DNA of 15,849 bases from Spirochaetota bacterium (GTDB taxonomy: Bacteria > Spirochaetota > JAGLSM01). The position numbers were made by a program, and so were the translations under genes. The stretch is from positions 1 through 15,849 of the forward strand of contig JAGLSM010000008.1 in assembly GCA_023135745.1 (NCBI GenBank), read 5' to 3'. Below are positions 165 to 15,849 of the stretch, in pieces (the stretch's first letter is position 1; every line of letters begins with the position of its first letter). Under the pieces are notes generated by a model, which worked only from the letters and a program-made list of their open reading frames with translations, was not told the DNA's origin and ran no database searches.

Positions 165-2405
165 CTACTTTGATGTGAGCTTAAACACTCCGTCCCATGG
201 TTGAGGCGGAGGATTCTTAATGAACTCTCGGCATCTTGGGATGTAAACCCTTCCTGCAAGGGAGTCATTGGGACTAATTTTTAAAGCATCCTCAAACCTG
301 CTTATGGCTTTTTCAAATTCCATAGCCTGATAGAGTTTAATTCCGGTTTCGTATGTGTCCCGGAACTCTATAATCTGACTTGAAAGTTCTCCCTTTCTTG
401 CCATGAGTTCAAAAACCTGAGTTGGTTCGCTTTTTCCTTTTACTGTTAATTTATCGATAGTTCTTACTTCGATTTTATCGCTTGCCTGAAAAAGAGTCGA
501 TTCGCTTACCATTGTAAATGTACCGTACTGTTTGTTTGCGCCTTCCAGACGAGATGCAAGATTCACCGGATCTCCCATAATTGTGTAGTTAAGTTTTTTC
601 TCTGATCCGATATTACCTGCAACAGCATTTCCTGTATTGAGTCCTATCCTGACTTTCAGGTCGCTTTCAAGCCCCATACTTCTGAATTCTTCCCGAAGTT
701 CATGTAGTCTTTTCTGGTTATCAAGGGCGGCATAACATGCTTTCCACGCGTGATTTTCATCGTCAACCGGCGCTCCCCAGAATGCCATGATTGCGTCACC
801 TTCGTATTTATCCACATAACCGTCAAAGTCGTAAATTATATCCGACATTGCAGTGAGGTATTTATTCAGGATTTGAACAAGCTTCTGCGGCGATCCCAAC
901 TTTTCGGAAAATGTTGTAAAGCCCTGAAGGTCGGAGAAAAATATTGTAAGTTCCTTTTCTTCTCCGCCAAGGCCTAATTTAGAAGGATCGTCCATGAGTT
1001 TATCAACTATGGCAGGAGCCACAAATTGTGAAAAAGCTCCCTTGATAAAGGATTTCTGTCTGTTTTCAATAAAATAATTTACAAGCGTTCCTATGAGGAA
1101 GGCCGCAATGATAGATGCTAGAATGGTTGCCATATCTATTAAGGTATTTGAAAAATTAAAAAGCATAATGGATACTGCAATATAGACTAAAGCGATGCCT
1201 ACAGTTATTATGGTTCCTTTTAATACGGAAAATTTTGCTCCGGCAAGGCCTGTAATAATTGACAAGACAAGAATTATAATAATGGTGAGCATTGGATCAT
1301 CTATCTCGGAAATAAAGTCCTTTTGTATGAAGTTGTCAATAAGGGTTCCATAAAGATGCATTCCGGGATCTTTTTTATAAAATGGATTGGGCCTTAGGTC
1401 AAGTAAACCCGGGGCCGTAGAACCAATGATGACTATCTTGTCTTTAAATGTTTTTGAGTTGAATTTGAACTTAAATGATTTTGCAATATCATCGATACTT
1501 GCATTCGGCATTTCCTGTTGTTTTGTTTGAATCCAGATTAACTTAAAAGCGGAAACCGATTTATATTCTGCAAATTCATTATAAAATTTCAAAAGAAAAT
1601 TACCATTTTTATCAAGCGGCGCCTGAATTGTTTTACCCTTTTTTGTTTTTATAATGAATTTGGATTGAGACATAATTATTTCTTTTGAATTAAAAAAATC
1701 CAGTATCGGCGGGATACCAAGGTTTCCAAAAAATTTGCCCTGAGATTTGAAGATAAGCTTAACCCTTCTGGAAATACCGTCTTTGTCGGATAAATGAGCA
1801 ATGTCGCCAATGTTTTTTACAGCAGGTATATAGACAGAATACGGCGGCTGAATATAGTCTTTTGTTATTACCTTAGAATCTTTTCCTTTTACTTTCACGG
1901 ACAGCGCGAATTTACCCAAAGGGTTTTCTGTGACAAGGGATTTTGAATTTTTTGAAGAACCTTTTTTTATTTTTGAAGTCTGGAAATTCACTCCAAAATA
2001 AACCGATCCAAAATTTGTTATTTCAGCTGCGAAGATTTTATCGTCTTCTACTCCGGCTTTGGAAAATTCTGTAAACAGCATATCAAAAACGGCAGCCTTT
2101 GCGCCTGCTTTTTTAAGATATTTTAGAATAAAAGCATACGCCTGCCGGGGCCAGGGCCATGTTATCCCCTGTTGCTCAGCGATGGTTGTGAGGCTGCTTT
2201 GGTCTATTTTTACATAGACAATTTTATTGCTTGATTTTCCAGATGAAAAATTTCTGCGTCTCCAGTCAGCTGTAAAATTTTCTATGTTTTCCATTAGTCC
2301 TGACATATAGACTACAGATGCGATAATTGATACGGTTATTCCGATAAGAAGGCCCTGAATAATTTTGGAATGTTTTTTTAGTTTATTTTTTATGAGTTTT
2401 TTCAT
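165..2405 (-). CDS. CHASE2-domain class IIIb adenylate cyclase with C-terminal TPR
   Basis: Predicted inner-membrane receptor that makes cAMP from ATP. Numbering is from the chosen start, giving 746 residues. One membrane helix (about 17-36) leads into an extracytoplasmic CHASE2 sensor domain (about 40-365). Three closely spaced helices follow (about 373-446), then a class III cyclase domain (about 485-665). Metal-binding aspartates are D492 (FSDLQGF) and D537 (YEGDAIMAF). K533, N615 and R619 supply the other catalytic positions, so the enzyme looks active. The adenine-selecting position is T608 rather than Asp, the class IIIb pattern. One TPR-like hairpin (about 682-725) and a PPPxxWDGV tail end the protein. 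I prefer this ATG to the one at 2417 because GGAGA lies 5 nt before it, while the upstream ATG has no ribosome site. It has its own promoter-like sequence, so it need not belong to the pel transcript. The sensed ligand is unknown. Confidence 0.93.
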   Translation of the reverse strand: MKKLIKNKLKKHSKIIQGLLIGITVSIIASVVYMSGLMENIENFTADWRRRNFSSGKSSNKIVYVKIDQSSLTTIAEQQGITWPWPRQAYAFILKYLKKAGAKAAVFDMLFTEFSKAGVEDDKIFAAEITNFGSVYFGVNFQTSKIKKGSSKNSKSLVTENPLGKFALSVKVKGKDSKVITKDYIQPPYSVYIPAVKNIGDIAHLSDKDGISRRVKLIFKSQGKFFGNLGIPPILDFFNSKEIIMSQSKFIIKTKKGKTIQAPLDKNGNFLLKFYNEFAEYKSVSAFKLIWIQTKQQEMPNASIDDIAKSFKFKFNSKTFKDKIVIIGSTAPGLLDLRPNPFYKKDPGMHLYGTLIDNFIQKDFISEIDDPMLTIIIILVLSIITGLAGAKFSVLKGTIITVGIALVYIAVSIMLFNFSNTLIDMATILASIIAAFLIGTLVNYFIENRQKSFIKGAFSQFVAPAIVDKLMDDPSKLGLGGEEKELTIFFSDLQGFTTFSEKLGSPQKLVQILNKYLTAMSDIIYDFDGYVDKYEGDAIMAFWGAPVDDENHAWKACYAALDNQKRLHELREEFRSMGLESDLKVRIGLNTGNAVAGNIGSEKKLNYTIMGDPVNLASRLEGANKQYGTFTMVSESTLFQASDKIEVRTIDKLTVKGKSEPTQVFELMARKGELSSQIIEFRDTYETGIKLYQAMEFEKAISRFEDALKISPNDSLAGRVYIPRCREFIKNPPPQPWDGVFKLTSK

Positions 2406-2441
2406 TGGATTCTCCATACGGGTTTTTAAAGTAACAAGTGC

Positions 2442-2648: not shown

Positions 2649-4007
2649 CTATATAGGCTGGTTTTTAAATATTGTGTACTCAAGGTTTTTAAGACGAATC
2701 AGCATAAAAACAAGTCCGATGAACATTGGAATGGCCAGGGATAGCGCGTATCCCATACCAAGATATTTTTTATCTAATGTGGATGAGTATATCGTCAGAC
2801 CTACATTGAGGAAAAAAAACAAAATTACAATCCAGGTTGTTGTTCTCCTGAGGTCGAAGTACATCATAAAGATCATTGTAAATAAAAACATCACGTGAAA
2901 ACATGCCGCAATTGCAAGGTTCCGAAATACCGGTATAAAGGATTCAGGAGCTCCGAATATTCTGAGTACATCTCCCGCAAAATAATACGCTGCAGCAGTT
3001 ATTAGAATCTGGAAGACAAAAAGTTCTGCAAAGCTTTTTTTAAAAGAGTGAGCCATTTCAATTTTATTTTTTTTAATTTCCTTAACCGGTTTATCAATTA
3101 TTGAATCATAAAATTTTCTGTATTTCATATAAAAATCAGTTTCTATTTTTATTATAAAATGTGCCAGGGTTGGTATAATTGTAAGATACGCTATATATAC
3201 TGATATATCATATGGCGGATAAGCGTAAAAATTTCCTGAGATTCTTTCTCCGCGGATTATCCAGAAAATTATTTTATCAATCCATATCCCGCAGGAATAG
3301 AAAAAACCAATTACTGCTATTGACGGAAAAATTTTAAAATAGGTAAAAATCTCTCTGATAAAAAGCATTTTTGTTTTAAACTCTTTAAGAACTGATCTTA
3401 GAAGGAGAATAAAAATTGTAAACTGGCCTAATGAATAAAAAATTATAAGAGGCCATCTAAGAAAAATGACATTTCCTGCGATTAATACTACCGTAATTAA
3501 TACGCCTATCAAAAATGCCCTGACTATTTCTTTGTAGTTTTTAAGGCAGCTCAGGAAATCCATCATTACCCAGATGGATGATATAGTCATGTAGAAAAAA
3601 ACACCGAATATTCCCCGCAATAACGAGAGTTTAAAATAAAGGGCTGCGCCGACTCCTGTAATGAGTGTGAGTATTGCAGTAAATATAAGCATTGTAGAGA
3701 GTGCGGGCAGCAGGCGGTCTGTTTGCTTTAAAAATAATTGATCCGCGAGGTATCTGGTTAATGTGAATTGTATGGGGCCTGTTAATACGAGAGATCCGGC
3801 AAAACAATAAACTATGAGTATACTGAAGCTGCCCATATTTGCAGTTTTAAAAAAAGTTCCGCTGAGTATTCCGATAGCGACCAGGCAGAATATTGAAAAT
3901 ATCCAGGGGCCGGATGAAATTAATGTGGCAAAAAAATATGCTTTAATTTTTGCGAAGCCTTTTTTACCCTCATATAGTTTCTGAAGTTCAAACCCTATTC
4001 CGGCCAA
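2649..4007 (-). CDS. pelG: PelG-like polysaccharide transporter, MOP/flippase-type membrane protein
   Basis: Inner-membrane partner of PelF. In characterised Pel systems PelG is thought to move the growing polymer across the inner membrane. With the chosen TTG start it has 452 residues, close to the roughly 456 usual for PelG. It begins AGIGFELQKL, the family's characteristic N-terminus, followed by the LISSGPW stretch in the first helix. I count twelve hydrophobic segments spread along its length, with a charged cytoplasmic-type loop near the middle (KIETDFYMKYRKFYDSI). An open frame runs back to an ATG at 4058, but that adds 17 residues unlike the family. The TTG has AAGGG 7 nt upstream. 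The gene overlaps the end of pelF by 20 bp, so translation is probably coupled. Assignment is by recalled family features and by its place after pelF. Confidence 0.9.
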   Translation of the reverse strand: MAGIGFELQKLYEGKKGFAKIKAYFFATLISSGPWIFSIFCLVAIGILSGTFFKTANMGSFSILIVYCFAGSLVLTGPIQFTLTRYLADQLFLKQTDRLLPALSTMLIFTAILTLITGVGAALYFKLSLLRGIFGVFFYMTISSIWVMMDFLSCLKNYKEIVRAFLIGVLITVVLIAGNVIFLRWPLIIFYSLGQFTIFILLLRSVLKEFKTKMLFIREIFTYFKIFPSIAVIGFFYSCGIWIDKIIFWIIRGERISGNFYAYPPYDISVYIAYLTIIPTLAHFIIKIETDFYMKYRKFYDSIIDKPVKEIKKNKIEMAHSFKKSFAELFVFQILITAAAYYFAGDVLRIFGAPESFIPVFRNLAIAACFHVMFLFTMIFMMYFDLRRTTTWIVILFFFLNVGLTIYSSTLDKKYLGMGYALSLAIPMFIGLVFMLIRLKNLEYTIFKNQPI

Positions 4008-5442
4008 TTGTTGTCCCTTCTCTATGCATTTCCATATAGGTTTGCCGGTATTTGTCAATTACCAGTCTTATATCGTACATTTTTAATACTTTGTCCTTGC
4101 TTTTTTTACCCAGAGCTTTTCTAAGTGCATGATCCTCTGCAAGCTTAACTATCGCATCGGCAGTTTCTCCGGGAGCTTTTGCTTTTGTGATGAGGCCTAC
4201 TCCTTCAAGGAGATCAGGACAGCTTCCTACAGAGCTTGAAATACACGGAACCTCAACGCACATGGCTTCCAACAGGGTCAGCGGCTGAGCTTCTCTTACG
4301 CTGGTTAAAACCATAATGTCTATTTTGCCGTAATAGTCCATCATGTTTACTTTTCCGGTGAATATAATATCATTGCTCATGTCGAGGTCTTTGACTTTCA
4401 TCATACATTTTAAGAAATAGTTTTTATTTTCATCTGTGGGGCCTATTATATAGAATTTTAAATCCGGTAATTTTTGTTTTGCTATCGCGGCTGCTTCAAT
4501 AAATGTTAGTATGTCTTTAATAGGAACTACTCTTGCGACTATACCGATTCTGATTATATCAGAAGGTTCCTTTTTTATCGATGTGAATTTTTTTGTATCA
4601 ATTCCATTTGGAATTATCTCAATCTTTCCGGGATCGGCGTGTCCCTTTACCGCCAACAGTCTGTTTCCCTCAAATAGGGTTACAAGTTTGTCGGTATATT
4701 CGTATGTAATATTGCAGAGGTTATTAAAAAATTTAATCCAGAGTGGTTTTAATTCAGGTTTAATATTCTTTGAGGCAAGAATCTCATCCTCCCTCTCATT
4801 CGCATATATGCCGTGTTCGGTTAATAAAAACGGCTTATTGTATTTGATATGAGCAAGTGCGCCCATATAACCGGCGTAACCGGTTGATACAGTATGATAA
4901 AGGTCGGCGTAGGGGATCGTGGAATCGTAGAGCTTATAGAGGGTTGTCTGTGTTGATCTCCAGAACCAGAAATAATCCATAAAACTTACGTTTCCTCCAT
5001 CCTTATGGTATCTTGAATTGAATAGATTAAATGATCCACGGCTTTTTAACAAATCCATAAGGTCTAAAGTTTTTTCTTTGTTTGCTTTTGGAAGAAGGTG
5101 TGCTGCCACAACATCAAACATTTTGTAATTTTTAAAATCCATGTAGTTGAAGTAAGTTTCTACGTCTTCCCAGGCTTTCCTTTTTTCTTTTGATGAAGCT
5201 TTTGAATATTTTTTTGCTTCATTAATTGTGCTTTGATTTAAAAAGATTTCTTCAATGTGAAGTACATTATTTGGTATGGGATATTTAAACTTTCTTTTTT
5301 TATATTCCTGAGGAAGTATCAGCCATAGTACAAAATTGAATTCTTTTAGAGACTCTATTATCTGGTGAACCCAGCTTGCGACTCCGCCTACTATATAGGG
5401 ATAAGATCCTTCAACTATCATACATACTAGAGGTCTGGTCAA
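3988..5442 (-). CDS. pelF: PelF glycosyltransferase, GT4 family (GT-B fold)
   Basis: Cytoplasmic polymerase of Pel-type polysaccharide; in Pseudomonas, PelF is the UDP-sugar-using transferase of the Pel inner-membrane complex. It has 484 residues against about 507 in Pseudomonas. The N-terminal half (about 5-290) carries the PelF signature EGSYPYIVGGVASWVHQ (11-27) and TEHGIYANER (208-217). The C-terminal GT4 lobe (about 295-470) shows GIVARVVPIKD (300-310) and the nucleotide-sugar EX7E motif at E384 and E392, so the active site looks intact. There is no membrane segment, so retention at the membrane would rely on partners. The TTG start overlaps the HEAT gene stop (TTGA) and has a good GGAGG 7 nt upstream. 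The next in-frame ATG (5421) would cut into the first beta-strand. Polymer identity is not provable from sequence alone. Confidence 0.93.
   Translation of the reverse strand: MTRPLVCMIVEGSYPYIVGGVASWVHQIIESLKEFNFVLWLILPQEYKKRKFKYPIPNNVLHIEEIFLNQSTINEAKKYSKASSKEKRKAWEDVETYFNYMDFKNYKMFDVVAAHLLPKANKEKTLDLMDLLKSRGSFNLFNSRYHKDGGNVSFMDYFWFWRSTQTTLYKLYDSTIPYADLYHTVSTGYAGYMGALAHIKYNKPFLLTEHGIYANEREDEILASKNIKPELKPLWIKFFNNLCNITYEYTDKLVTLFEGNRLLAVKGHADPGKIEIIPNGIDTKKFTSIKKEPSDIIRIGIVARVVPIKDILTFIEAAAIAKQKLPDLKFYIIGPTDENKNYFLKCMMKVKDLDMSNDIIFTGKVNMMDYYGKIDIMVLTSVREAQPLTLLEAMCVEVPCISSSVGSCPDLLEGVGLITKAKAPGETADAIVKLAEDHALRKALGKKSKDKVLKMYDIRLVIDKYRQTYMEMHREGTTIGRNRV
4005..4019 (-). promoter_or_regulatory. 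Ribosome binding site and TTG start of pelG
   Basis: Minus-strand AAGGG (4019-4015) lies 7 nt before TTG (4007-4005), inside the last codons of pelF. The protein from this TTG begins exactly where PelG homology begins, which decides the start against the longer ATG option at 4058. Confidence 0.7.
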
Positions 5443-6989
5443 ATCAAGGCCTCCGGATCTGTATATCTAAGCAGTTTTACAACACTGCTAAAAACACTTT
5501 CTTTTTTTATAAGGTTGGGCATGTTTGCTTTTATAAAGAGATTATCTTTCATTAATAGAAGGAGAGTAGCTCTTCCCGGCGTGTTTTTAAGGGCATCAAG
5601 AGCTTTTTCCAGAAAAAAGTTATATTGCTGAGGTGTATATCTTGAAGAGTTACAAAGGCGGGTAAGTCTCTTTGTGATATATTTTAAGCCCTTTTTTGTT
5701 TTTTCTTTTGAAAAGATAAATAGGGTAAGTGCGTTAATAAAAATATTTTTATCGTTTATAAAGGTTTTGAACTCCTTTTCTGTCAGATTTCTCCCTTTTA
5801 AAAATAAAGCGTATAATGCTCTATATCTTACCTTCCAGTTTTTAGAATGTATTGCTATTTTTTTTACCGCATAAAATGGAAAAGAGCCTGTTCCGCTTGG
5901 GATAATTTTTAAAACCAGTCTTTGAATCAGCTGATTTTCATGATACAGCAGGGAAATACAGGAAGCTTCGAATCCTATTGAAGAGAGACTTTCAATTATC
6001 AAGCGTAGTTTATCACTGGTTTCCGATTCAAGGTGATCAACGAGAAATTCGATGCTTTCTTTATCCCTGACTTCCTTGAGTATTTTCAAGACTGAAAGCT
6101 GGGCACTTTCATCCAGATTACTGTATTCTTCTATTATTATGCTTATATCAAAAGGATAGAGTTTTATTATTGCGGTTTCAATATGCCTGGATAAGGCAGG
6201 TTCTTTTTTAAGCATTTCGATCAGGTATGGCAGGCTTGATTCGGAACCGACCTCTCCAATCGCCCAGACAGAGATTCGTTTTAACGCTCTTTCTTTTGCA
6301 TTAAGATATTTATAGAGTATATCGAGGCTTGTTTCATTTTTTAATCTGGCAAATGCTTCAAGTATCAAATATTTTTTATAAGGAGGAGCCATTGGTTCAT
6401 CAAGAGCGAGGCTCAACGATTCAATGGCATCGGCTCCGATTGAAACAACAGTATCTATTACATAAGGAGCAAGAATCTTGTTTTCGATGAGTTTCATCAT
6501 TGGCAGAATAGCAACAAGATTTTTGAGAAGACCTAATGCCTTTATTATTTTCTTCTGAAATCTCTGATCCGGGTCTTCGAGCATCGGTATCAGTTTAAAG
6601 ACATCCTCCTCTTTCTGAAAACTGCTTAAAGCAAGTGCCGCTTGTGCGCGCACCATTTTATTTTTATGTTCAAGAAATTCAGAAGAGAATTCATAGGACA
6701 GCTCTGTTTTAATTTCAGGAATTATTTCAAGTAATTCAATTAATAACGTTTCATTTAATTGGTCAATGAACATTTTTGCTGTATTTATTGTTTCATCACC
6801 CATGGCAATGAGGAACTCTTTTATTTTATCTCTGAAATTGTAATTACTGTCTATGATATGTAGAAGGATTTCTTTTTGTACATCAGGATCCTGGGTTATT
6901 TTTAACAGATTGAAAGACTTGAGTCTCTCTTCAACCGGAAGGCGGGTATCCTTGAACCTGGTCAGATTGTGAGCCAGGGAATTGTCCAT
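5439..6989 (-). CDS. HEAT-repeat protein, candidate Pel-complex scaffold
   Basis: A 516-residue protein with no signal peptide or membrane helix, so cytoplasmic. Nearly all of it reads as paired amphipathic helices of the HEAT/PBS-lyase-repeat type. The clearest stretches are MVRAQAALALSSF, KRISVWAIGEVGSESSLPYL and KVRYRALYALFLK, with D or P at the turns. No catalytic motif is visible. It lies between the epimerase (6 nt gap) and pelF (stop-start overlap), so it is almost certainly co-translated with pelF. HEAT solenoids bind other proteins. In known Pel systems, PelE, a membrane protein with TPRs, helps join PelD to PelF and PelG. A similar scaffold role here is inference from position only. 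A GAGG ribosome site lies about 10 nt before the ATG. Confidence 0.85.
   Translation of the reverse strand: MDNSLAHNLTRFKDTRLPVEERLKSFNLLKITQDPDVQKEILLHIIDSNYNFRDKIKEFLIAMGDETINTAKMFIDQLNETLLIELLEIIPEIKTELSYEFSSEFLEHKNKMVRAQAALALSSFQKEEDVFKLIPMLEDPDQRFQKKIIKALGLLKNLVAILPMMKLIENKILAPYVIDTVVSIGADAIESLSLALDEPMAPPYKKYLILEAFARLKNETSLDILYKYLNAKERALKRISVWAIGEVGSESSLPYLIEMLKKEPALSRHIETAIIKLYPFDISIIIEEYSNLDESAQLSVLKILKEVRDKESIEFLVDHLESETSDKLRLIIESLSSIGFEASCISLLYHENQLIQRLVLKIIPSGTGSFPFYAVKKIAIHSKNWKVRYRALYALFLKGRNLTEKEFKTFINDKNIFINALTLFIFSKEKTKKGLKYITKRLTRLCNSSRYTPQQYNFFLEKALDALKNTPGRATLLLLMKDNLFIKANMPNLIKKESVFSSVVKLLRYTDPEALI
5440..5454 (-). promoter_or_regulatory. Ribosome binding site and TTG start of pelF
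   Basis: Minus-strand GGAGG (5454-5450) is 7 nt before TTG (5442-5440). The TTG shares bases with the TGA stop of the HEAT-repeat gene, giving a stop-start overlap typical of translational coupling. Confidence 0.75.
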
Positions 6990-6995
6990 ATTTTT

Positions 6996-7922
6996 TTAGC
7001 CTCTTATATTCTCTTTGTAATATTTATATGTTTCGGTGATAGAATCTTCTCTAAGATACTTAATTTTGAAGCCGGTTTCTTTTAATTTATCGATAGATGC
7101 TGCGGAATGTTTAATATCTCCGGGCCTTTCGGGCAGATAAACAACCGGGGATTCATTTTTACACATTTTATTTATCATAAATGCAAGTTCATTGATTGAT
7201 ATGATGCCTTCACCTGATATATTGTAGACTTCTGAGTTACCCTTATCCAGCAGCCATGTCAAAGCGTTTATGACATCTTTTACGTAGACAAAATCTCTGG
7301 TTTGTTCTCCATCACCAAAGACATTTATTGCTTTTCCCTGAAGCGCCTGATTAATAAAAATCGGTATTGCCGCGGCATATTTTGAAGCAGGGTCTTGTCT
7401 GGCTCCAAATACATTGAAGAAACGAAGAACACTTGTTTCTACCCAGTTATTACCGCTGTATATTGAACAGTAATACTCTCCGTCAAGTTTTGTTACCGCG
7501 TAAGGAGAGAGCGGGGCGGGGAGCATTGTTTCAACCTTGGGCATTGCAGGATCATCTCCGTAAACAGCAGCTGATGAAGCAAATATGACTTTTCTCACCT
7601 TGTTTTTTTTTGCCGCTTCCAGAACATTTAAAGTTCCATCGACATTTATCGATACTGTTTCAAAGGGTTTTTCAAGGGATTCGGGTACACTGATTAACGC
7701 GGCTAAGTGAAAGATGCAGTCTACTCCCTGTGATACATCTTCAAGCAGCCTTCTGTTTTCAACAGAACCTTCTACAAAATCATGCTTAATGCCGTCCAGG
7801 TTTTTTTTGTAACCTGATCTGAGGTTGTCCAGAATAATCACCTTATTATCAACCGATAATGCTTCGGCAAGGTGACTTCCAATAAATCCGGCGCCGCCGG
7901 TAATAAGATATTTCTTGCTCAT
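6996..7922 (-). CDS. NAD-dependent sugar-nucleotide 4-epimerase, extended SDR family
   Basis: Likely interconverts a UDP-hexose or UDP-N-acetylhexosamine at C4 in the cytoplasm. The 308 residues show the NAD-binding TGGAGFIGS (8-16), the active-site S117 in SSAAVYG, and the YxxxK pair Y141 and K145 in SPYAVTK. The RFFNVFGARQDP block (168-178) and GDGEQTRDFVYVKD (203-216) place it with GalE/WbpP-type epimerases rather than with the dTDP-glucose dehydratases. Pel contains N-acetylgalactosamine, and some Pseudomonas pel clusters carry the UDP-GlcNAc C4-epimerase PelX. That makes a UDP-GalNAc-supplying role attractive, but substrate preference cannot be read with confidence. The start has GGAG 7 nt upstream. 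The gene follows the lipoprotein gene by 15 nt. Confidence 0.9.
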   Translation of the reverse strand: MSKKYLITGGAGFIGSHLAEALSVDNKVIILDNLRSGYKKNLDGIKHDFVEGSVENRRLLEDVSQGVDCIFHLAALISVPESLEKPFETVSINVDGTLNVLEAAKKNKVRKVIFASSAAVYGDDPAMPKVETMLPAPLSPYAVTKLDGEYYCSIYSGNNWVETSVLRFFNVFGARQDPASKYAAAIPIFINQALQGKAINVFGDGEQTRDFVYVKDVINALTWLLDKGNSEVYNISGEGIISINELAFMINKMCKNESPVVYLPERPGDIKHSAASIDKLKETGFKIKYLREDSITETYKYYKENIRG

Positions 7923-7937
7923 TTTAATTCTCCTGTT

Positions 7938-8996
7938 TTATTTCCATCTTTGTCCGCGGCGGATTTTTGATAATTTTACGACTGCGGCAATAAATTCTAT
8001 TCCGGTAACATCCTGCTTTGGATGGAATCTTGAACTGAATGTTGCAGATAGAAGCTCATTTCTTACTGTGAATATTATGTCTGACAGGTATCTGCCGGTA
8101 TCAACGTCAACAAACGGATTTTTTACACCTCTATAACGGCTGTATATTCTGATGTCTCTTGATTTGTATTTATAGATATATGTCAGGAGTTTTGCTGTTT
8201 CCATACGGGACAGAGTTTTTTTTCGACGTTGGCTTCTGTAAAAGGCTCGGGGAATTACTCTTCTGTTTAACAAGGTCAGGTCAAGGTTGGTAAAATACTT
8301 TGTATATCTGTATTTTAACAGTTTTCTTGCAATAACAAGTATTGCTTCTTTATAGGAAACAGTTTTTTTAATTGCCAGTTTTTTTTCAAAAACTCCATTA
8401 ACATTACAGGTTTTTATCAGTTTTAGAAGTGATAGTTTTTTATCCGCGTCTTTCTGTTGTTTTGCCGGGATGTGAAAAAGCCGTTTATAGAATTTTTTCG
8501 CGGTAGTGAAATCAAGACGTTCTTTGTATATCTCTCCAAGAAGCCAGAGTGTTAAGGGCATATCCTTTTTTTCTTTATAAACGCTCAAGAGTATCTCAAG
8601 CGATCTGTTTTTTCGTCCCCATTCATAGAGAGTTTCTCCGTATTTTTCTCTTACACTAATATTTTTTCCTCCAAATTTGAGGTATTTCTCATAATTTAAG
8701 GATGATTTTTGGGGTTTATTAACAAGAGCGTATAGTTCTCCAAGATAGTTATGTATGTCACGGAAATATTTTTTATTGTTCTTTTTAAATTCAGGATTTC
8801 TATCTGCAAGTTTTAATGATTTTTCAAATGATTCAATTGCAAGAACTTTATTTTGCGCATCAAGATCAATGGTTATATAATATTTTTTTCCCAAAGTGAA
8901 GTGGTCTATAGGGTTAGATGATTTCAAAATAGATTCTTTGCTTCTGCAGGAGAAGCTTATGAATATAATAATTAGAAAAATCAAAGCTCTTTTCAT
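7938..8996 (-). CDS. Lipoprotein with TPR-like and SLH-like repeats
   Basis: First gene of the leftward string, 352 residues. A hydrophobic signal peptide (1-16) ends at C17 in SFSC. This is a relaxed lipobox of the kind seen in spirochaetes, so lipidation is likely. Residues about 30-185 form TPR-like helix pairs (DIHNYLGELYALVNKPQKS, WLLGEIYKERLDFTTAKKF). The C-terminal half resembles three degenerate SLH modules. Their cores, matching the ITRAE-type motif, are SYKEAILVIAR (module about 192-232), LSRMETAKLL (about 233-275) and VTGIEFIAAV (about 295-350). The third also has the opening FVDV and the RFHPKQ turn. SLH modules usually bind cell-wall polymers. TPR lipoproteins such as AlgK help exporter assembly in other exopolysaccharide systems, and PelC is a lipoprotein of Pel export. 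A similar role is inference. The SLH call is by eye and uncertain. Confidence 0.85.
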   Translation of the reverse strand: MKRALIFLIIIFISFSCRSKESILKSSNPIDHFTLGKKYYITIDLDAQNKVLAIESFEKSLKLADRNPEFKKNNKKYFRDIHNYLGELYALVNKPQKSSLNYEKYLKFGGKNISVREKYGETLYEWGRKNRSLEILLSVYKEKKDMPLTLWLLGEIYKERLDFTTAKKFYKRLFHIPAKQQKDADKKLSLLKLIKTCNVNGVFEKKLAIKKTVSYKEAILVIARKLLKYRYTKYFTNLDLTLLNRRVIPRAFYRSQRRKKTLSRMETAKLLTYIYKYKSRDIRIYSRYRGVKNPFVDVDTGRYLSDIIFTVRNELLSATFSSRFHPKQDVTGIEFIAAVVKLSKIRRGQRWK

Positions 8997-9045
8997 TATT
9001 TAAGCGGCCTTTCTGTGTGAATAAAATTTTATTTAAGATTTACGG

Positions 9046-9074
9046 TTGTAATTATTGATGCAGTGAGATAAAAT
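9046..9074 (+). promoter_or_regulatory. Possible promoter for the giant outer-membrane protein gene
   Basis: TTGTAA (9046-9051) and TAAAAT (9069-9074) are separated by 17 nt, four and five of six matches to sigma70 consensus. Transcription would start near 9081, about 30 nt before the ATG. It interleaves with the leftward promoter, so one regulator or the competition between polymerases could balance both transcripts. Confidence 0.45.
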
Positions 9075-9079
9075 TGCAA
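9051..9079 (-). promoter_or_regulatory. Possible promoter for the lipoprotein-epimerase-HEAT-pelF-pelG string
   Basis: On the minus strand TTGCAA (9079-9074) and AATAAT (9056-9051) are separated by 17 nt, matching consensus at four and five of six positions. The leader would be about 50 nt. It overlaps the opposite-strand promoter-like sequence almost completely. Confidence 0.4.
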
Positions 9080-9111
9080 GTAAAACTTTGGTTCCTCGGA
9101 GGGAATGGATA

Positions 9112-12100
9112 ATGAATAAAGTCAAGGCAGTTGTATCATTGATATTAATTACATGCTTGTTTCTGCCAAGCACCCCGCATAGTCAGATCGGATACAGGAA
9201 TATAATTGTAATTGAGGGAGAAGACGCGATTACAACCAACTTTGCAAAGGAACCGACTTTTAACCTTGACTGCAGCGGTCAGAAGGCTCTTCAGCTTTCC
9301 ACATCTAAAAAACCTTCTCTAAAAAGAGGATATTTTGCGGAATATGTATTTACCAATCCTCAGAATAGAAAGTATGATCTCTGGATTGGAGTAACCCCTC
9401 CGGGCTCCAGGTATTCATCAAAGACCGGCTATGCATCTCCATTCAGGTGGAAGCTGGATGATGGGAAATTTACTTTAGCATCTTCAGAAAATACAAAGGT
9501 AGGTAAATACTACGCGGCAGGCGGATTTTACTGGATAAGACTGAGCAGGGGAATTTTAACAAAAGGTAAACATAAACTTGTAATAGAAGTAGATCAAAAA
9601 AGAAGCAGCGGTTGGGATTATTTTTTATACATAGACTCAATGATCTTTATTCCGGTTGACACAAATCCGAAAAATTTTATTCCCAAAGTTAAAGTTTTTC
9701 CGAAAAAGAGGAGCAGACTTAAAGTTTTCAAACTCAGATCAATACAGGAATATAAGAGACTCAGAAAAAGGAAGAGACTGAGTGAGAACGAGCTGTTTAC
9801 CCTTGCTAATTGTTATATCTGGCTGTTTGATTATAAAAAGGCAATTCATGTTCTTAATCAGCTTTCCTTTAAGTACCCGCGAAAAGTCCGGTATAGAATT
9901 CTGGCTGCAAAAAGCCGTGCGTGGAGCGGTAAAATTGATCTTGCAATCAGGGACTATAAAAGGATACTTGTTAAATTTCCCAGAAACACCTATGTCAGGA
10001 AGTCAATGGCCATTATCGCCGGTTGGAACAACAGGTATAATGAAGCGATTAAACAGTATAAAAATATTATTAGAGTAGATCCAAATAATATTGATGCCTA
10101 TTTGTCAATTGCTACAGTTTATTCATGGTCTAAAAGGTCAAAAGAAGCTCTCGGCTGGTATGAGAAAGCTTCTGCCAGATTTCCGAATAATGTTAAGGTT
10201 AAAATGACTCTCGCGAAACACTATTCATGGTCAGGTAAAATGGATGCCGCGATTAGGGAACTTGAAAAAGTAATCAGGATTGATAAATACAATATCAAGG
10301 CATATAAACAACTTGCAAAATTTTACAGGTGGAATAATCAGCCTAAAAAAGCCAAGCTTGTCATTAAGAAGCTGCTTGCCAGATTTAAAGACCCTTCTGT
10401 TTATAAGGATATGGTCGCGGTATTTGATGAAACAGAAAAAAACAGACTTCTTGCGATAAAGAATTATCTTGCAATATTAAAGGTGAATCCTGAAAATCTT
10501 TCAGTCAGGGAGAGTCTTGCCAAGGCCTATGTCTGGAATAATATGGGCAAGGAAGCTGTCAGCGAATATAAAAAAATTATTGATATAAGATATTACAAAA
10601 AACTTATTAAGACTGAAAATGACAATAAAAATCTGTTTGTTCAATATGCCAGGTTAAAGATAATGGAAGACTGGATGAAAAAAGTATCACCGCGTCTTCT
10701 AAGATCAGTCTCAGACCTGGAAGATATTACAAAAACGGATTCAAAATATAAAAGCATCATTACCAGAGCAGCAAAAATACAGAACTATCTGAAAGGTAAG
10801 TTAAATTCTTATGCCCTTTTAATCAGGAAAAATGAGGGATTGCTTGAGAAGATGGCGAAGCTCAGAAAGTCATTTTTAGCAAATATTTATAAACTCGGAT
10901 GGACACCTGAGATTAATTCGTTAATTTCAAAATCAAGGGATAATATTAAACTATATAAAACGATATGGCCCCGGAAAATAATCGCATCAATGTATACCTT
11001 TCTTAACAGAATTGGTTCCTCTATTGATACTTATAAAGATTTGGGAATAAAAAGGAAGCCTGAGATAAGCTGGATTCTGCCCATATTGCATATCTGGAAT
11101 GGTAATATTAAATCGGCAAAGAATACACTTGCATTATTGCCTCCTAAGATAAGGGGGAAAGTATTCAGCAGTGTATTGGCAGATTTTTTGAGTATTGAAG
11201 GAATAAAACTTGATATAAAAAACAGTTCCGGGTCAGGTATTTTAGACCCCAAAAAACTCAGGAAAAAGCTTCTTGGAATGTATATTCAGATTGGGCTTTT
11301 TCAGAATCAGCTGAAGTCTCTGTATGGTCTCATATCAAGTGCGATAAATACAGAGCTTGATTATGCTCTTTTTACCCAGGCAAAAGAGAATACTTCATTG
11401 AGAAAAGAGATAGGAAACTTTAACCTGCGCGAGAAAAAGGTCGCGGATGCGATTTTTCAATATGAGAAGGTGTTAAAAGTGCTTCCCGGGGATAGTGAGC
11501 TTAAACTATTATTATCAGAGATATACGGATGGGATAATAAATGGAAGAAAAGTCAAAAACTCCTTACATCGTTACTTACATATAATCCTGACAATAAAAC
11601 AGCAAGAAACAGATACATAGATCTTAACCGTAATCATGCCATGAATATCCATTCTGACTTTAAGATCATAGATGATACTGGTTATAATTCAACAAAGATA
11701 AACGCCGGATGGAGTGATTATCTGGGAGAAATAGGAAAGATCAATCTTAAGTACAGTTTTATTAATCAGATAGAAACTGCTGCAGTTACAAATACAAGTA
11801 TTCAGGCTTATGATCTTGGCGCTGACTACAAAGGAAATTATACCGCGCATGTCTTAAAAGGGGGGATTGAATTTGCATTTGGTAAGAATTTTTCCATTAA
11901 TCCTTTCGCTTCTCTATATAGTTTTGAAGTTGAAGATATTCCCATAGCCACAAATAATCATACATTTTTAGGATATGGAGCTGATGTCTTTATAAAAATG
12001 TTTGATGATGCTATTGTTTTGCAGCTTCAGTTTGCAAATCTTCCGGTTATGGATAGAGCTCAAACCGTAAATAAAAATATATCCAAAATGACAGGTGGTA

Positions 12101-13911
12101 TTGAGTTATCACTTAATCTATTTGAACGATTGAGCCTGGGGGGTGTTTTTAGATTAAATAATTATTCTGATACCAACAATACCGTCTCTATCGAAACAGG
12201 GCTCAATCTGCACTACGCAATAATAGACAGCAGCCGGTATGGTTTTAAGTTGTCTCCACGCATAGGTATTTCTTATCTTGACAGGTTATCAGACTATAAG
12301 GGTGCTTTGCCGTTCTGGATACCTTTAAAGAGAACAACCGGATCATTTGGTGTAGGTATAAATCATAATCTGGAGAAGATGATTGGCACACGTCTGTCCT
12401 ATTATTTATCCTATAGTTTTGGTATGAACAACAACAAAGAGAAATCTCACAGCCTATATTTCGCTCCTTCATGGCATATCGGTGATTTTCTTTTAAACGC
12501 AGTAATTTCCTATTACACATCTAAGGCTGAAACTGCAGACGATCCTTATAAGAATACGACTTATGGATTTAATGCAGGTTTAAAATTTTATTCTTCATCT
12601 TTGCCGGGTTTAAAGGTTAGAAAGAGTGATCTTTACGTACAGTCCAAGAGTGATTTTATGACTATGGACAATGACGGCAAAGATGATACAGCAGTTTTTG
12701 AAATTCAGACATTTGATGCTTCAGAGATAAAAAAATGGGAGTTTATAATCAAAGACATCAATATGAAACTTGTTAGATCATATAAAGGTCTTGGGAATCC
12801 TCCTTCAACACTTGAATGGAAGGGCTATGATTCCGCAAAAAGAATTGTTAAAGCGGGTGATTATAATTATTGTATAAAAATTGAGAATGGTTTGGGGCAG
12901 CTGTCACAGACAAGGGCAAAAAGGATTACAGTATCCAAATCTTCGATAGCGGTACGCGTTACTGTGACACCGTCATTTTCACCTAATGGTGACGGGGCAA
13001 AGGATGTCTGCAGTATAAAACCTTCATCTACATCAACTAAGGGTATAAAGAAATGGGTCATAACTATTAAGGATAGACGTAAAAAAGACATAAGAGTTTT
13101 CAGTGGACTGAAAAAGCTTCCTTATGGAAAAGAATGGAACGGAAAAGACGCGTTTGAGAGGAAACTGCGTGATGGTGAATATAAGGCTCAATGTGAGATT
13201 GAATACAATAACGGTATCAAAATTGTTTCATCGGAAGTTGCTATAGTACTTGATACTAAAACTTCAGCAAGTATTCGGTCAATGCCTGATTCTAAAAATA
13301 TAAACGCGGTAATGTTTAATATGAAAAGCAGGGAGAAAGCCGATATAGTTGAGTGGTCTGTAGTTATTTATCATACTGAAGGTTATGCTTTAAGGACCAT
13401 ATCCGGAATTGGTGTTTTGCCGGATTCTGTAAGCTGGGATGGTAAGCTTGAAAAAAATCTTGCTTCAGAATACGGCACCAGATTTTATGCTAAGCTGATA
13501 GTTAAAGACAGGTCGGGTAATTCCTATACTACAGGAAAGACTTATTTTACAACCAGACCATATGTGTTTACAACAAAACGCTATATGAAGGTAATTACAT
13601 TTTCATACAATAAAAAGAACAGGCGGTTTTTAAATCCGCTTTTTGCTCTGATAAATAACAAGTTTGCAGAAAAGGGGAAAAGGATAATTATTGCAGGTTA
13701 TACTCATATGTCAGGATTAAAGGATCAGAATATTCTGCGGTCAAAAAACAATGCCAAGGCAATGCAAAAAATGCTGACAGCGGCTTATCCGGGTTTAGGT
13801 TCAGCAATCATGGCAGGCGGCAACGGCGGGACTAATCCATTTCGGAGTACCGGTACTATCAATGATAAAAAGTGGAATGACCGGATTGAGATAACAGTGT
13901 ATTTTAAGTAG
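9112..13911 (+). CDS. Giant PelB/BcsC-like outer-membrane exporter with carbohydrate-binding, FlgD/Ig and OmpA-like domains
   Basis: An exported protein of 1599 residues. The order is: signal peptide (1-24); a CBM6/35- or malectin-like beta-sandwich (about 30-182, opening IEGEDA); and a Lys/Arg-rich linker (about 185-224). TPRs follow (about 225-500) with a recurring YSWSGK/GWNNRY helix turn, then a less regular helical stretch (500-770) and more TPR (770-843). Next is a run of alternating amphipathic strands (about 844-1163), roughly sixteen, read as an outer-membrane beta-barrel. Three FlgD-like Ig domains follow (about 1175-1482; the second has FSPNGDGAKD), then an OmpA-like end (about 1485-1599). 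TPR plus barrel is the plan of PelB, BcsC and PgaA exporters. An even number of strands would leave both ends in the periplasm, as an OmpA end requires. The ATG has GGAGGG 8 nt upstream; an in-frame TTG at 9088 lacks that support and overlaps the ribosome site. Confidence 0.88.
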   Translation: MNKVKAVVSLILITCLFLPSTPHSQIGYRNIIVIEGEDAITTNFAKEPTFNLDCSGQKALQLSTSKKPSLKRGYFAEYVFTNPQNRKYDLWIGVTPPGSRYSSKTGYASPFRWKLDDGKFTLASSENTKVGKYYAAGGFYWIRLSRGILTKGKHKLVIEVDQKRSSGWDYFLYIDSMIFIPVDTNPKNFIPKVKVFPKKRSRLKVFKLRSIQEYKRLRKRKRLSENELFTLANCYIWLFDYKKAIHVLNQLSFKYPRKVRYRILAAKSRAWSGKIDLAIRDYKRILVKFPRNTYVRKSMAIIAGWNNRYNEAIKQYKNIIRVDPNNIDAYLSIATVYSWSKRSKEALGWYEKASARFPNNVKVKMTLAKHYSWSGKMDAAIRELEKVIRIDKYNIKAYKQLAKFYRWNNQPKKAKLVIKKLLARFKDPSVYKDMVAVFDETEKNRLLAIKNYLAILKVNPENLSVRESLAKAYVWNNMGKEAVSEYKKIIDIRYYKKLIKTENDNKNLFVQYARLKIMEDWMKKVSPRLLRSVSDLEDITKTDSKYKSIITRAAKIQNYLKGKLNSYALLIRKNEGLLEKMAKLRKSFLANIYKLGWTPEINSLISKSRDNIKLYKTIWPRKIIASMYTFLNRIGSSIDTYKDLGIKRKPEISWILPILHIWNGNIKSAKNTLALLPPKIRGKVFSSVLADFLSIEGIKLDIKNSSGSGILDPKKLRKKLLGMYIQIGLFQNQLKSLYGLISSAINTELDYALFTQAKENTSLRKEIGNFNLREKKVADAIFQYEKVLKVLPGDSELKLLLSEIYGWDNKWKKSQKLLTSLLTYNPDNKTARNRYIDLNRNHAMNIHSDFKIIDDTGYNSTKINAGWSDYLGEIGKINLKYSFINQIETAAVTNTSIQAYDLGADYKGNYTAHVLKGGIEFAFGKNFSINPFASLYSFEVEDIPIATNNHTFLGYGADVFIKMFDDAIVLQLQFANLPVMDRAQTVNKNISKMTGGIELSLNLFERLSLGGVFRLNNYSDTNNTVSIETGLNLHYAIIDSSRYGFKLSPRIGISYLDRLSDYKGALPFWIPLKRTTGSFGVGINHNLEKMIGTRLSYYLSYSFGMNNNKEKSHSLYFAPSWHIGDFLLNAVISYYTSKAETADDPYKNTTYGFNAGLKFYSSSLPGLKVRKSDLYVQSKSDFMTMDNDGKDDTAVFEIQTFDASEIKKWEFIIKDINMKLVRSYKGLGNPPSTLEWKGYDSAKRIVKAGDYNYCIKIENGLGQLSQTRAKRITVSKSSIAVRVTVTPSFSPNGDGAKDVCSIKPSSTSTKGIKKWVITIKDRRKKDIRVFSGLKKLPYGKEWNGKDAFERKLRDGEYKAQCEIEYNNGIKIVSSEVAIVLDTKTSASIRSMPDSKNINAVMFNMKSREKADIVEWSVVIYHTEGYALRTISGIGVLPDSVSWDGKLEKNLASEYGTRFYAKLIVKDRSGNSYTTGKTYFTTRPYVFTTKRYMKVITFSYNKKNRRFLNPLFALINNKFAEKGKRIIIAGYTHMSGLKDQNILRSKNNAKAMQKMLTAAYPGLGSAIMAGGNGGTNPFRSTGTINDKKWNDRIEITVYFK

Positions 13912-14788
13912 AAGTATCCGGATCCAGGGAACCCATCATTGATTCTATTTCTGACTTTTTTTCAAAGAGTTCTACTGTTATCTGTTTAAGCTGGTCTTCA
14001 TCAAGACCAAGAGTTTCAAAGACCTCATCCTGAAGAGGTGTCGGGATGTCGGATCCTGTAGAACCTATTTCTGCAATTTCTGCCGCGAAATCAGCCAAGT
14101 GAATTGTGGATACAAATATCTTGTTTTTATCGGATACATTTACGGGATTATGATGAGCTGAGAGAGCTTCAACAAGAAAGTCAGGAAATCCCCATTTTTC
14201 CGATACAATTTTCCCTATAATCTCATGGGTAAATTGACCCATGACAACCTGCTCAGCTTCATAGTAAGATACGTTTTTCTTTTTTGCTTCTTTGAGTATA
14301 TCCGCGAACTGGTCAGGAAAGTAGCATTCAATTATTACCTTTCCAAGATCATGAAGAAGGCCTGCAATAAAGAGATTCTGTATTTTTTTTTCATTCATGT
14401 TTTTTGTTTTGTTTGCAATTATTTTCGAGCAGGTTGCGACTGCCAGGGAATGTATCCAAAGAAGGTTTCTGTCAAATCCGTATTTACTGTGCTGTTTAAA
14501 GGTGTCTACACAGGCAATTCCGAGAGTTAAATTTTTAACAAGATCAAAACCGAGTATTGTAATCGCGTGTTGTAAAGAGTGGATTGGTTCACTGAATCCG
14601 TAATACGCGGAGTTAACTATTTTAAGGATTTTACTTGCTATTGCCATATCGTTTGAAATGACCTCGGCAAGGGCATTTGCATCACTATTAGGATCATTTA
14701 CTATTTCGTTTATCTTAATACTTAAGGCCGGTATTGTAGGTATCTGATCTACTTTTTCAAGTATTACTTCTATATTAATATTTGCCAT
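13904..14788 (-). CDS. HDOD-domain signalling protein
   Basis: A cytoplasmic protein of 294 residues consisting of one HDOD domain and a short acidic tail. Typical features are the opening IPTIPALSIKINEIVNDP (17-34), SNDMAIASKILKIVNSAYYG (45-64) and SLQHAITILG (71-80). The HD-like core includes H113, H146-D147 in LLHDLGK, H188 and H212-H213. HDOD proteins are regulatory or adaptor proteins in two-component and motility control, with no established enzyme activity. No receiver domain or other output domain is fused here. AGGA lies about 6 nt before the ATG. The gene follows the GH114 gene by 43 bp in the same direction, so the two may share a transcript. Its last 8 bp overlap the end of the oppositely oriented exporter gene. 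Confidence 0.9.
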   Translation of the reverse strand: MANINIEVILEKVDQIPTIPALSIKINEIVNDPNSDANALAEVISNDMAIASKILKIVNSAYYGFSEPIHSLQHAITILGFDLVKNLTLGIACVDTFKQHSKYGFDRNLLWIHSLAVATCSKIIANKTKNMNEKKIQNLFIAGLLHDLGKVIIECYFPDQFADILKEAKKKNVSYYEAEQVVMGQFTHEIIGKIVSEKWGFPDFLVEALSAHHNPVNVSDKNKIFVSTIHLADFAAEIAEIGSTGSDIPTPLQDEVFETLGLDEDQLKQITVELFEKKSEIESMMGSLDPDTST

Positions 14789-14831
14789 TATTTCCTCTTT
14801 TTATACTGATGTGTTTTTTGTAAAAGCTCTA

Positions 14832-15701
14832 TTAATATAACACAAAAGGCGGTATAGTATCAAGCTTGCGGTTTGAACAAAATGGAATAAATTTTTTCAT
14901 TATGGAAAGGAAATATGTTTTTTTGACATTGTTCCTGTTTTTTACATAATCAACGGTTAGTACAGATTTTCCTGCTTTGATGAAATATGACAGATATTTA
15001 AAGTAGAATCTTCGAGTATCCAGGGAGGTAGCGTTCTTATCTGATTTGTAGAAAATACTTTCCTGTCCTATCCCGTCAACTGAATCAAGATACTCTTTTC
15101 TTCTTCCCAGTTCAGGAGCATTTTGAACAAATACATATTTTTTTTTAATTCCGCTTTGTCTTACAATTTGGGAGATTTGTCTGACCATAAGTATCATTCT
15201 TTTTTCTGCGTTTACAAAACCTCTTTTTTTCCAGAAACGGTATGTGTCTATCCTGTCGAGATATACACCGTCAAATCTCGCGGAGATTATACGGCTGATG
15301 TAAGAATTTAATCCATTATATATGATTTTTTTCCACTGAGGATGCCAGAACTTTACAATAAAGTTTCCTGCCCATCCCTGATCGAGTTTAAGAATCCAAT
15401 CAGGGTGATTCGTTTTTGACCAGTGTTTTTTCCAATAGAATCTGTAGTTTTCAGCTTCTCCGATTGAAACGTACGCGAGGACAATTTTGCCGCTGTTTTG
15501 AATGCGCAGTATCTGAGCTTTTGTGAATGCTGAGTTTTCTGATCCGTCTTTCGTATAGTCAATTACTACAAGATCATAGGGTGATTTTGCTATCTCTGAA
15601 ATACTTACGTTCTGCAATTGGTATAACCATGAGCGTATGCCATGGAAGGATTTGTTAGTGACTTTTAGATTTTTTGAACAGCCGGAGGTGCTGATTATCA
15701 A
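14832..15701 (-). CDS. GH114-type (endo-alpha-1,4-polygalactosaminidase-like) glycosidase, probable lipoprotein
   Basis: A TIM-barrel hydrolase of the TM1410/GH114 type. Characterised GH114 enzymes cut alpha-1,4 galactosaminogalactan, and the related GH166 domain of PelA cuts Pel. Numbered from the TTG at 15701 (289 residues), the barrel strands show VVIDYTKDG with D48, LAYVSIGEAENYR with E82, FDGVYLDRID with D149, VQNAPEL (192-198), QES with E214 and LTVDYV with D251. This full acidic set suggests an active enzyme. The start is unresolved. Cys8 in TSGC looks like a lipobox, and the in-frame sequence upstream adds a hydrophobic stretch (ICYCFLIGLIIS). Yet no ATG, GTG or TTG lies in frame upstream before the window edge, and the TTG at 15701 has no ribosome site. 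I therefore give the minimal coding extent. Its place beside Pel genes suggests polymer trimming or release. Confidence 0.82.
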   Translation of the reverse strand: MIISTSGCSKNLKVTNKSFHGIRSWLYQLQNVSISEIAKSPYDLVVIDYTKDGSENSAFTKAQILRIQNSGKIVLAYVSIGEAENYRFYWKKHWSKTNHPDWILKLDQGWAGNFIVKFWHPQWKKIIYNGLNSYISRIISARFDGVYLDRIDTYRFWKKRGFVNAEKRMILMVRQISQIVRQSGIKKKYVFVQNAPELGRRKEYLDSVDGIGQESIFYKSDKNATSLDTRRFYFKYLSYFIKAGKSVLTVDYVKNRNNVKKTYFLSIMKKFIPFCSNRKLDTIPPFVLY

Positions 15702-15849
15702 GCCAATTAAAAAACAATAGCAAATTATTTGAAAATCCCGTATAATAAAATTTGATTTTATTTTTATTATGCTTACAAAAGTATTAGAACGTTGGAGAAG
15801 ATAATTTTTCTCCCCTTCCCTGCCGGGGCTGTCGATAAATAAAAATTGG
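15702..15849. other. Right-edge stretch upstream of the GH114 gene
   Basis: The minus-strand frame of the GH114 gene stays open to the window edge without a standard start codon. Only the part next to 15701 (about 15702-15746) looks like a lipoprotein signal peptide; the rest reads like translated AT-rich non-coding DNA. A small inverted repeat GGAGAA/TTCTCC (15794-15799 and 15808-15813) lies further out. I see no other gene. Confidence 0.4.

Follow-up and report, generated by a model that had tools for sequence, protein, structure and literature searches.

A Pel-type exopolysaccharide locus of a distinct spirochaetal PelF-PelG branch, with no PelD or PelE found on its contig or in the assembled genome

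The contig JAGLSM010000008.1 of Spirochaetota bacterium (GenBank assembly GCA_023135745.1, lineage JAGLSM01), 15,849 bases in length and referred to here as the window, carries a locus that is of the Pel exopolysaccharide type as judged by profile matches. It is most probably the Pel locus of a PelF-PelG branch of the Spirochaetota, termed type A, and would direct the synthesis and export of a partly deacetylated Pel-like polymer without a PelD or PelE of its own; a probability of about 0.5 is given to this reading. The sequence-only reading of this DNA had proposed a Pel-type locus, which is borne out by PelF and PelG, both far over curated cut-offs. The epimerase, HEAT protein, tetratricopeptide repeat (TPR) lipoprotein candidate, giant TPR protein and GH114-annotated hydrolase that it had placed around them were also recovered by profile searches where it had put them. 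The minus strand holds a tight run of genes for the lipoprotein candidate, the epimerase, the HEAT protein, PelF and PelG; 15 and 6 bases separate the first three of them, and the later ones overlap. The gene of the giant protein (1607 amino acids, plus strand) is divergent from this run, and an HDOD gene and the hydrolase gene, the latter cut by the contig end, are convergent with it. A CHASE2-class III cyclase gene comes after pelG. The window is an entire contig (C492 of genome G000) of a draft genome of 513 contigs, 2.39 Mb and 76% completeness, so that neighbours past its ends cannot be read. Wrong binning of the contig is unlikely by tetranucleotide composition, a weak test: r was 0.97-0.98 against the contigs C24, C484 and C112 of the same genome (first 6 kb), and loci from some relatives also reached 0.95-0.96.

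PelG (2649..4058, minus strand; the candidate TTG start overlaps pelF), a MATE-like inner-membrane translocator, matches PF16933 with an E value of 3.7e-114 and 382.5 bits (cut-off 29), residues 19-464 covering positions 2-452 of the 452 in the profile, and shows 11 hydrophobic segments by hydropathy. PelF (3988..5442, minus strand), a GT4 synthase with an EX7E motif, matches NF038011 with an E value of 8e-106 and 355 bits, against an equivalog cut-off of 100. Within the phylum, PelG is over cut-off in 23 of 392 genomes, the window's own counted, and was found in neither of the two genomes of the same order among them (G001 and G002). The window's own assembled genome has one PelF and one PelG. 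In G062, PelG forms residues 501-942 of an open frame of 955 amino acids (locus L008, 1-2868), the first 500 residues of which match nothing in Pfam up to E 1.

In the PelF tree (43 rows) the window protein and those of G021, G086 and G173 form the type-A clade with support of 100/99, and these four rows together with 15 spirochaetal PelFs of pelD loci make up one group (100/97). The five type-A members also group in the PelG tree (96/91), which was limited to 25 of 48 rows to save time; a quick tree with all 48 gives the type-A group a Shimodaira-Hasegawa-like approximate likelihood ratio (SH-aLRT) of 93. When read unrooted, the PelG trees split type A plus the pelDEFG type (type B), which are all the spirochaetal rows, from other phyla at 95/95 (SH-aLRT 97 in the 48-row tree), and PelF and PelG agree on the place of type A. 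By these splits, types A and B look like two old spirochaetal branches. The tip of the window is 0.9-1.0 long in both trees, and the Spirochaetales contig L034 groups among the spirochaetal relatives. PelF frames of 350 amino acids or fewer, such as the interrupted one of G157, were left out, as were loci L008, L045-L061, L075 and L081. The type-A PelF of G157 is split into two open frames (L067, 7507-8982), either by an assembly error or as a broken gene.

No look-alike of PelD, PelE, PelC or the PelA deacetylase is present among the 15 open reading frames of at least 80 amino acids in the window, in line with the sequence-only reading; the five among them that were not called as genes share at least some of their length with called genes. 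The Pfam model PF16963 (PelD_GGDEF) is uninformative, matching nothing anywhere, controls included, and was therefore replaced by a spirochaetal PelD profile (A1) of 12 spirochaetal rows and one from Comamonas. With this profile and a spirochaetal PelE profile, neither protein was found on the contig or in the 76%-complete assembled genome: the best PelD score there, 82 bits, belongs to a soluble GAF-GGDEF protein with a GGEEF motif, and the best PelE score, 32 bits, to a generic TPR match. The genomes G021, G086, G157, G173 and G255 each gave one PelD (648-691 bits) and one PelE (318-353 bits). The earlier suggestion that the missing parts lie outside the window holds for the deacetylase, located on contig C24 (see below), and may hold for PelD and PelE, which were not located in the assembled genome. 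An iterated PelD profile drew in the genome's own generic cyclase on contig C484 (304 bits) and, in G173, a 147-residue fragment where a contig ends (62 bits); this was taken as profile drift, and for the window's genome the scores of the first profile are the ones used. A Comamonas PelC query matches 14 of 29 named loci and none of the 21 larger spirochaetal loci, the rest of the window's own genome not having been searched, and the window contig has no free open reading frame of such kind.

PelD-like proteins (transmembrane, GAF and GGDEF parts) precede PelF in 15 fetched spirochaetal loci, 14 of which also have a PelE-like protein. Sequence 5' of PelF is available for 27 of the 29 named loci (all except L012 and L035), and 24 of the 27 have a PelD-like gene there; five of the 24 (L013, L014, L019, L021 and L034) are themselves profile seeds. 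PelD is thus usually easy to find across phyla, which makes its absence from the window unusual, not unique. The three named loci lacking a PelD-like gene, L011, L015 and L016, all belong to KSB1 and represent, within the stretches available, a second lineage of PelFG without such a gene; in the sequence available, a secretin lies a short way 5' of PelF in L011 and L016, and two histidine kinases are present in L015.

G021, G086, G157 and G173 each have two PelFs and two PelGs, yet one PelD and one PelE, which adjoin the type-B pair and not the type-A pair. In G021 and G157 the two pairs lie about 20 kb apart on one contig, around the giant protein, the TPR lipoprotein, a DUF2194 protein and a hydrolase. 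Compared with such a dual locus, the window looks rearranged and reduced: its type-A PelFG genes are divergent from the giant gene, a place taken by pelD in G021 and G157, and its lipoprotein gene lies on the other strand relative to the giant gene. It is possible, though on the unlikely side, that the contig is one half of a dual locus whose pelD-pelE-pelF-pelG set falls in the unassembled quarter of the genome, PelD and PelE serving both pairs. With all four type-A relatives holding pelDEFG, two of them around a shared export module, and a genome 76% complete, a hidden set would be ordinary here. In the assembled part, however, neither a second PelF or PelG nor any PelD or PelE was traced, and in all four relatives pelD is divergent from the lipoprotein-giant pair, whereas here the lipoprotein, epimerase, HEAT protein, pelF and pelG occupy the divergent side. 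Between the type-A pelF and the hydrolase, G021 has a GATase/SIS protein resembling GlmS (L062, 14389-16236), and G157 has a protein of 609 amino acids in that place.

The HEAT-repeat protein (5439..6989, minus strand; 516 amino acids; PF13646, E 1.9e-23) is a candidate scaffold in the slot that PelE takes elsewhere. Its gene overlaps the start of pelF by 4 bases, and no transmembrane segment was found by hydropathy. A homologue (P0002) is 48% identical over 99% of the protein, and a PelF homologue (P0005) is 71% identical to the window PelF; both come from the source 'lgn', and for each of them the longest contig measures 23,774 bases. Homologues of residues 850-1607 of the giant protein match chiefly its Ig/OmpA part and none lies on a contig of that length, so linkage of a giant protein to the HEAT-PelF pair is not shown there. 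A search of the 392 phylum genomes gave four HEAT matches besides the window's own, at repeat level only (best E 2.5e-8). Several surrounding genes are conserved: the giant protein, HDOD protein, epimerase, hydrolase and TPR lipoprotein each recur with pelFG in some Spirochaetota. This does not extend to the HEAT gene, which is absent from every fetched relative locus.

HEAT proteins of 640-684 amino acids do stand directly 5' of pelF in five other loci, two from Omnitrophota (and one each from Bdellovibrionota, Myxococcota and UBP16): L017, L018, L020, L024 and L027. There they follow a gene in the PelE position, and L017, L018, L020 and L027 match Comamonas PelE. A profile of these five proteins gives no match to the window protein at E 1e-3. 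The five loci and the window have the position 5' of pelF in common; any common descent beyond the HEAT repeats is hypothetical. An earlier alignment (A4, E 0.0038) was set aside as it mixed PelE-position proteins and the L015 histidine kinase with HEAT proteins, and was replaced by A5. A reading of the HEAT protein as a PelE that has strongly diverged, or as its functional substitute, so that only PelD is really missing, is unlikely. It would agree with the place of the gene here and in the five loci, with the lack of a transmembrane segment in three spirochaetal PelE-like proteins examined and with a Calditrichota PelE-position protein that carries both TPR and HEAT matches. Profile comparison with spirochaetal PelE shows no similarity (hhalign probability 0.2%), and the HEAT proteins of the five loci stand beside a separate PelE-position gene.

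PelA, described earlier as lacking, is better regarded as divided between two genes. The hydrolase (14832..15848, minus strand, 5' end cut by the contig end) scores 226.6 bits against TIGR01370 (cut-off 181.25), and its nearest solved relative is TmGH191/TM1410 (structure 9eux, E 6.3e-49), followed by 9ep5 (E 1.8e-27). These two structures, TmGH191 and Env-GH191, are described as members of the new family GH191 (2025, PMC12054363). Asp156, Glu225 and Trp121 (Tm numbering) align with identical residues in the window protein, which is, on these matches, GH191-like rather than GH166 and of the PelA-hydrolase kind. A GH191 member acting on Pel is reported to prefer stretches rich in galactosamine (GalN) (PMC12054363). 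The deacetylase half is represented by a DUF2194 protein on contig C24, which matches 9ZAU with an E value of 6.6e-47; 9ZAU is PelADA of Bacillus cereus, described as the founding member of CE26 (PMC13254593). The C24 protein has identical partners for D262, D263, H350, H354, N407, R458, H488 and D490 of PelADA, residues named as zinc ligands, base, base partner and putative substrate contacts (PMC13254593); the zinc and base residues D262, D263, H350, H354 and H488 are all aligned. It resembles a CE26 deacetylase with its catalytic residues conserved. DUF2194 proteins adjoin the giant TPR protein in G021, G157 and G255, which ties the family to these loci. In the window's own genome the gene sits apart, among genes that look like housekeeping genes by inspection (Lon-like, deformylase-like). 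Since the genome holds both a GH191-like hydrolase and this CE26-like deacetylase, the fully acetylated polymer suggested in the sequence-only reading is unlikely.

The SDR epimerase (6996..7922, minus strand; PF01370, E 2.7e-61), a candidate UDP-N-acetylglucosamine/UDP-N-acetylgalactosamine 4-epimerase, has intact GxxGxxG and YxxxK motifs (GGAGFIG and YAVTK). Its best NCBIfam models are TviC (197 bits) and GalE (179 bits), both under cut-off, and homologues are present in the dual loci L063 and L066. These subthreshold models, together with the deep branching of PelF and PelG and the fact that the type-A product is not known, would suit a PelFG pair that makes a glycan other than Pel. This is quite improbable: the hydrolase and the deacetylase both resemble enzymes that act on alpha-1,4-linked polymers of N-acetylgalactosamine (GalNAc) or GalN, and PelF lies far over its equivalog cut-off.

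The TPR lipoprotein candidate (7938..8996, minus strand; TPR_2, E 9.8e-5, under cut-off) has counterparts with an SLH domain over cut-off in L063, L066 and L069 and under cut-off in L065, and TPR-SLH lipoproteins are present in the four dual-pair genomes. No SLH domain was found in the window copy, the single-sequence structure model of which has a predicted local distance difference test score (pLDDT) of 38, too low to be of use. The export candidate, the giant protein (9088..13911, plus strand), begins with a signal segment followed by TPRs at about residues 230-850. Residues 855-1190 are uncharacterised and suspected to form a barrel (pLDDT 30 in a single-sequence model, moment z 1.7, both weak), residues 1199-1367 are FlgD_ig/CHU_C-like and residues 1509-1595 weakly OmpA-like, all under cut-off. 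The TPR part of the TPR-plus-barrel exporter proposed earlier is thus clear by profile. Homologues of near full length occur at 27-28% identity in G021, G086 and G173. In G173 a protein of 880 amino acids with Ig, CHU_C and OmpA parts, divergent from the type-A pelF (L068, 4709-7351), resembles the C-terminal part of the giant protein alone.

The HDOD protein (13904..14788, minus strand; PF08668, E 3.7e-59, 201 bits) is the only one over 60 bits in its own assembled genome. It adjoins the giant gene and not pelG, and is 33% identical to the HDOD neighbour of the type-B pair in G021. Proteins with an HDOD score over 60 bits (lower matches being left out) lie within 11 kb of 23 of the 28 spirochaetal pelG places, 14 of them within 1 kb, against an expectation of 0.83 from HDOD number and genome size; the 11 kb limit was set after the distance in the window (10.1 kb) was known, and the loci, being related by descent, do not count as independent. 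The 28 places represent 23 genomes and 27 loci, one gene being split over two contig ends. Among the 29 named loci, only the spirochaetal L034 has an HDOD gene within the stretches available. The HDOD genes convergent with type-A pelG (L062, 10504-11433; L064, 14556-15458; L067, 10297-11202; L068, 10355-11257) encode strongly diverged proteins, scoring 63-95 bits where most others reach 145-210, that have kept the HD motif. SadB, a protein with a C-terminal HDOD domain, is said to act on Pel in P. aeruginosa. SadB of Pseudomonas fluorescens is reported to bind cyclic di-GMP (c-di-GMP) with a dissociation constant of 0.23 micromolar, the binding domain not being settled, and the mechanism of the HDOD domain is described as unestablished (PMC6543031). 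C-di-GMP signalling is present in the window's own genome, in the form of GGDEF proteins and ten PilZ matches.

Membership of the CHASE2-class III nucleotide cyclase (165..2417, minus strand; PF05226, E 1.5e-39; PF00211, E 6.8e-25) in the system is uncertain. It could be imagined as a membrane input that replaces PelD by way of cyclic AMP, its gene lying on the strand of pelG and 231 bases after it, with both domains well over cut-off, and G086 having a HAMP-cyclase near its type-B pelG (L065, 758-2683). This is very unlikely, as among the 20 fetched relative loci and L034 a cyclase match occurs only at G086, and the gene has a promoter-like match at its own 5' side, a weak sign.

In the reading of the locus as that of a PelFG branch without its own PelD or PelE, the epimerase would supply UDP-GalNAc, from which PelF would form an alpha-1,4-GalNAc chain and PelG would pass it across the inner membrane. 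As a protein translated beside PelF, the HEAT protein may take the PelE position and hold or gate PelF there. Partial deacetylation of the chain would fall to the CE26-like enzyme and its trimming to the GH191-like enzyme, while the TPR lipoprotein and the giant protein would guide it through periplasm and outer membrane. Control would come from transcription, the HDOD protein or another input, not from PelD. A more specific form, in which a soluble HEAT scaffold replaces PelE and an HDOD protein of the SadB kind carries the second-messenger input of PelD, is doubtful.

Besides the ordinariness of a hidden pelDEFG set, several points weigh against the reading. The genomes with high PelD and PelE scores supplied rows of the two profiles, so that their scores are no measure of how well a strongly diverged PelD would be picked up. 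In the four type-A relatives there is no HEAT protein beside PelF, and a role for it is therefore not general for type A. The placing of P0002 and P0005 on one contig comes from the equal size of 23,774 bases and not from read sequence. The suspected exporter barrel in the giant protein is a candidate only, the coupling of the deacetylase to the locus is inferred, its gene being on another contig, and the HEAT-PelF contact and the c-di-GMP role of the HDOD protein are proposals.

The pelABCDEFG locus of P. aeruginosa is alike in PelF, PelG, a TPR export candidate, a PelA-type hydrolase and a deacetylase. In contrast to it, no PelD, PelE or PelC was found in the window locus, the PelA roles are split between the locus and another contig, the export candidate is fused to Ig and OmpA-like domains, and HEAT and HDOD genes are added. 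The pelDEADAFG locus of B. cereus ATCC 10987 is alike in a separate deacetylase (PelADA, to which the C24 protein is homologous), a separate hydrolase and a galE-like accessory epimerase (PMC7112168, PMC13254593), but PelD and PelE are reported as present and required there (PMC7112168), and the Gram-positive host has no outer-membrane exporter. Streptococcal pel with class IV PelD offers a case of Pel control without c-di-GMP binding to PelD, although PelD itself (degenerate SDR, transmembrane and GAF parts) is reported as kept and needed (PMC12345266); no transmembrane GAF protein was found on the window contig or in the assembled genome. The 15 spirochaetal pelD-pelE-pelF-pelG loci (L034, L063, L065, L066, L069-L074 and L076-L080) resemble the window in an HDOD neighbour (11 of 15) and a giant TPR protein (8 of 15; phmmer, stretches available), and differ in that all have PelD and another PelFG branch.

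The role of post-translational switch of Pel is ascribed to PelD, which is described as kept even in streptococci without c-di-GMP (PMC7112168, PMC12345266). Pel loci have been reported in Gram-positives, Thermotogae and others (PMC7112194, PMC7112168). One survey includes operons with only pelF and pelG recognised, some of which were completed by iterative searches (PMC7112168), a reason for caution over the missing PelD and PelE here. In the open-access literature, no paper was found that joins HEAT repeats and a pel operon, phrases for absent PelD gave none on PelF without PelD, and in papers on HDOD and exopolysaccharides neither the titles nor the openings of the abstracts point to a pel locus. 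Among the matches listed, no open-access paper has both Pel and spirochaete terms, subscription journals being mostly outside the search.

As far as these searches show, Spirochaetota is a further phylum with Pel loci, one in which separate genes cover the PelA roles and dual PelFG loci occur. The HDOD association at 23 of the 28 spirochaetal pelG places provides a concrete candidate regulator. If true, the absence of PelD and PelE from a Pel branch would reveal what a minimal synthase-translocator consists of and by what other means it can be gated.

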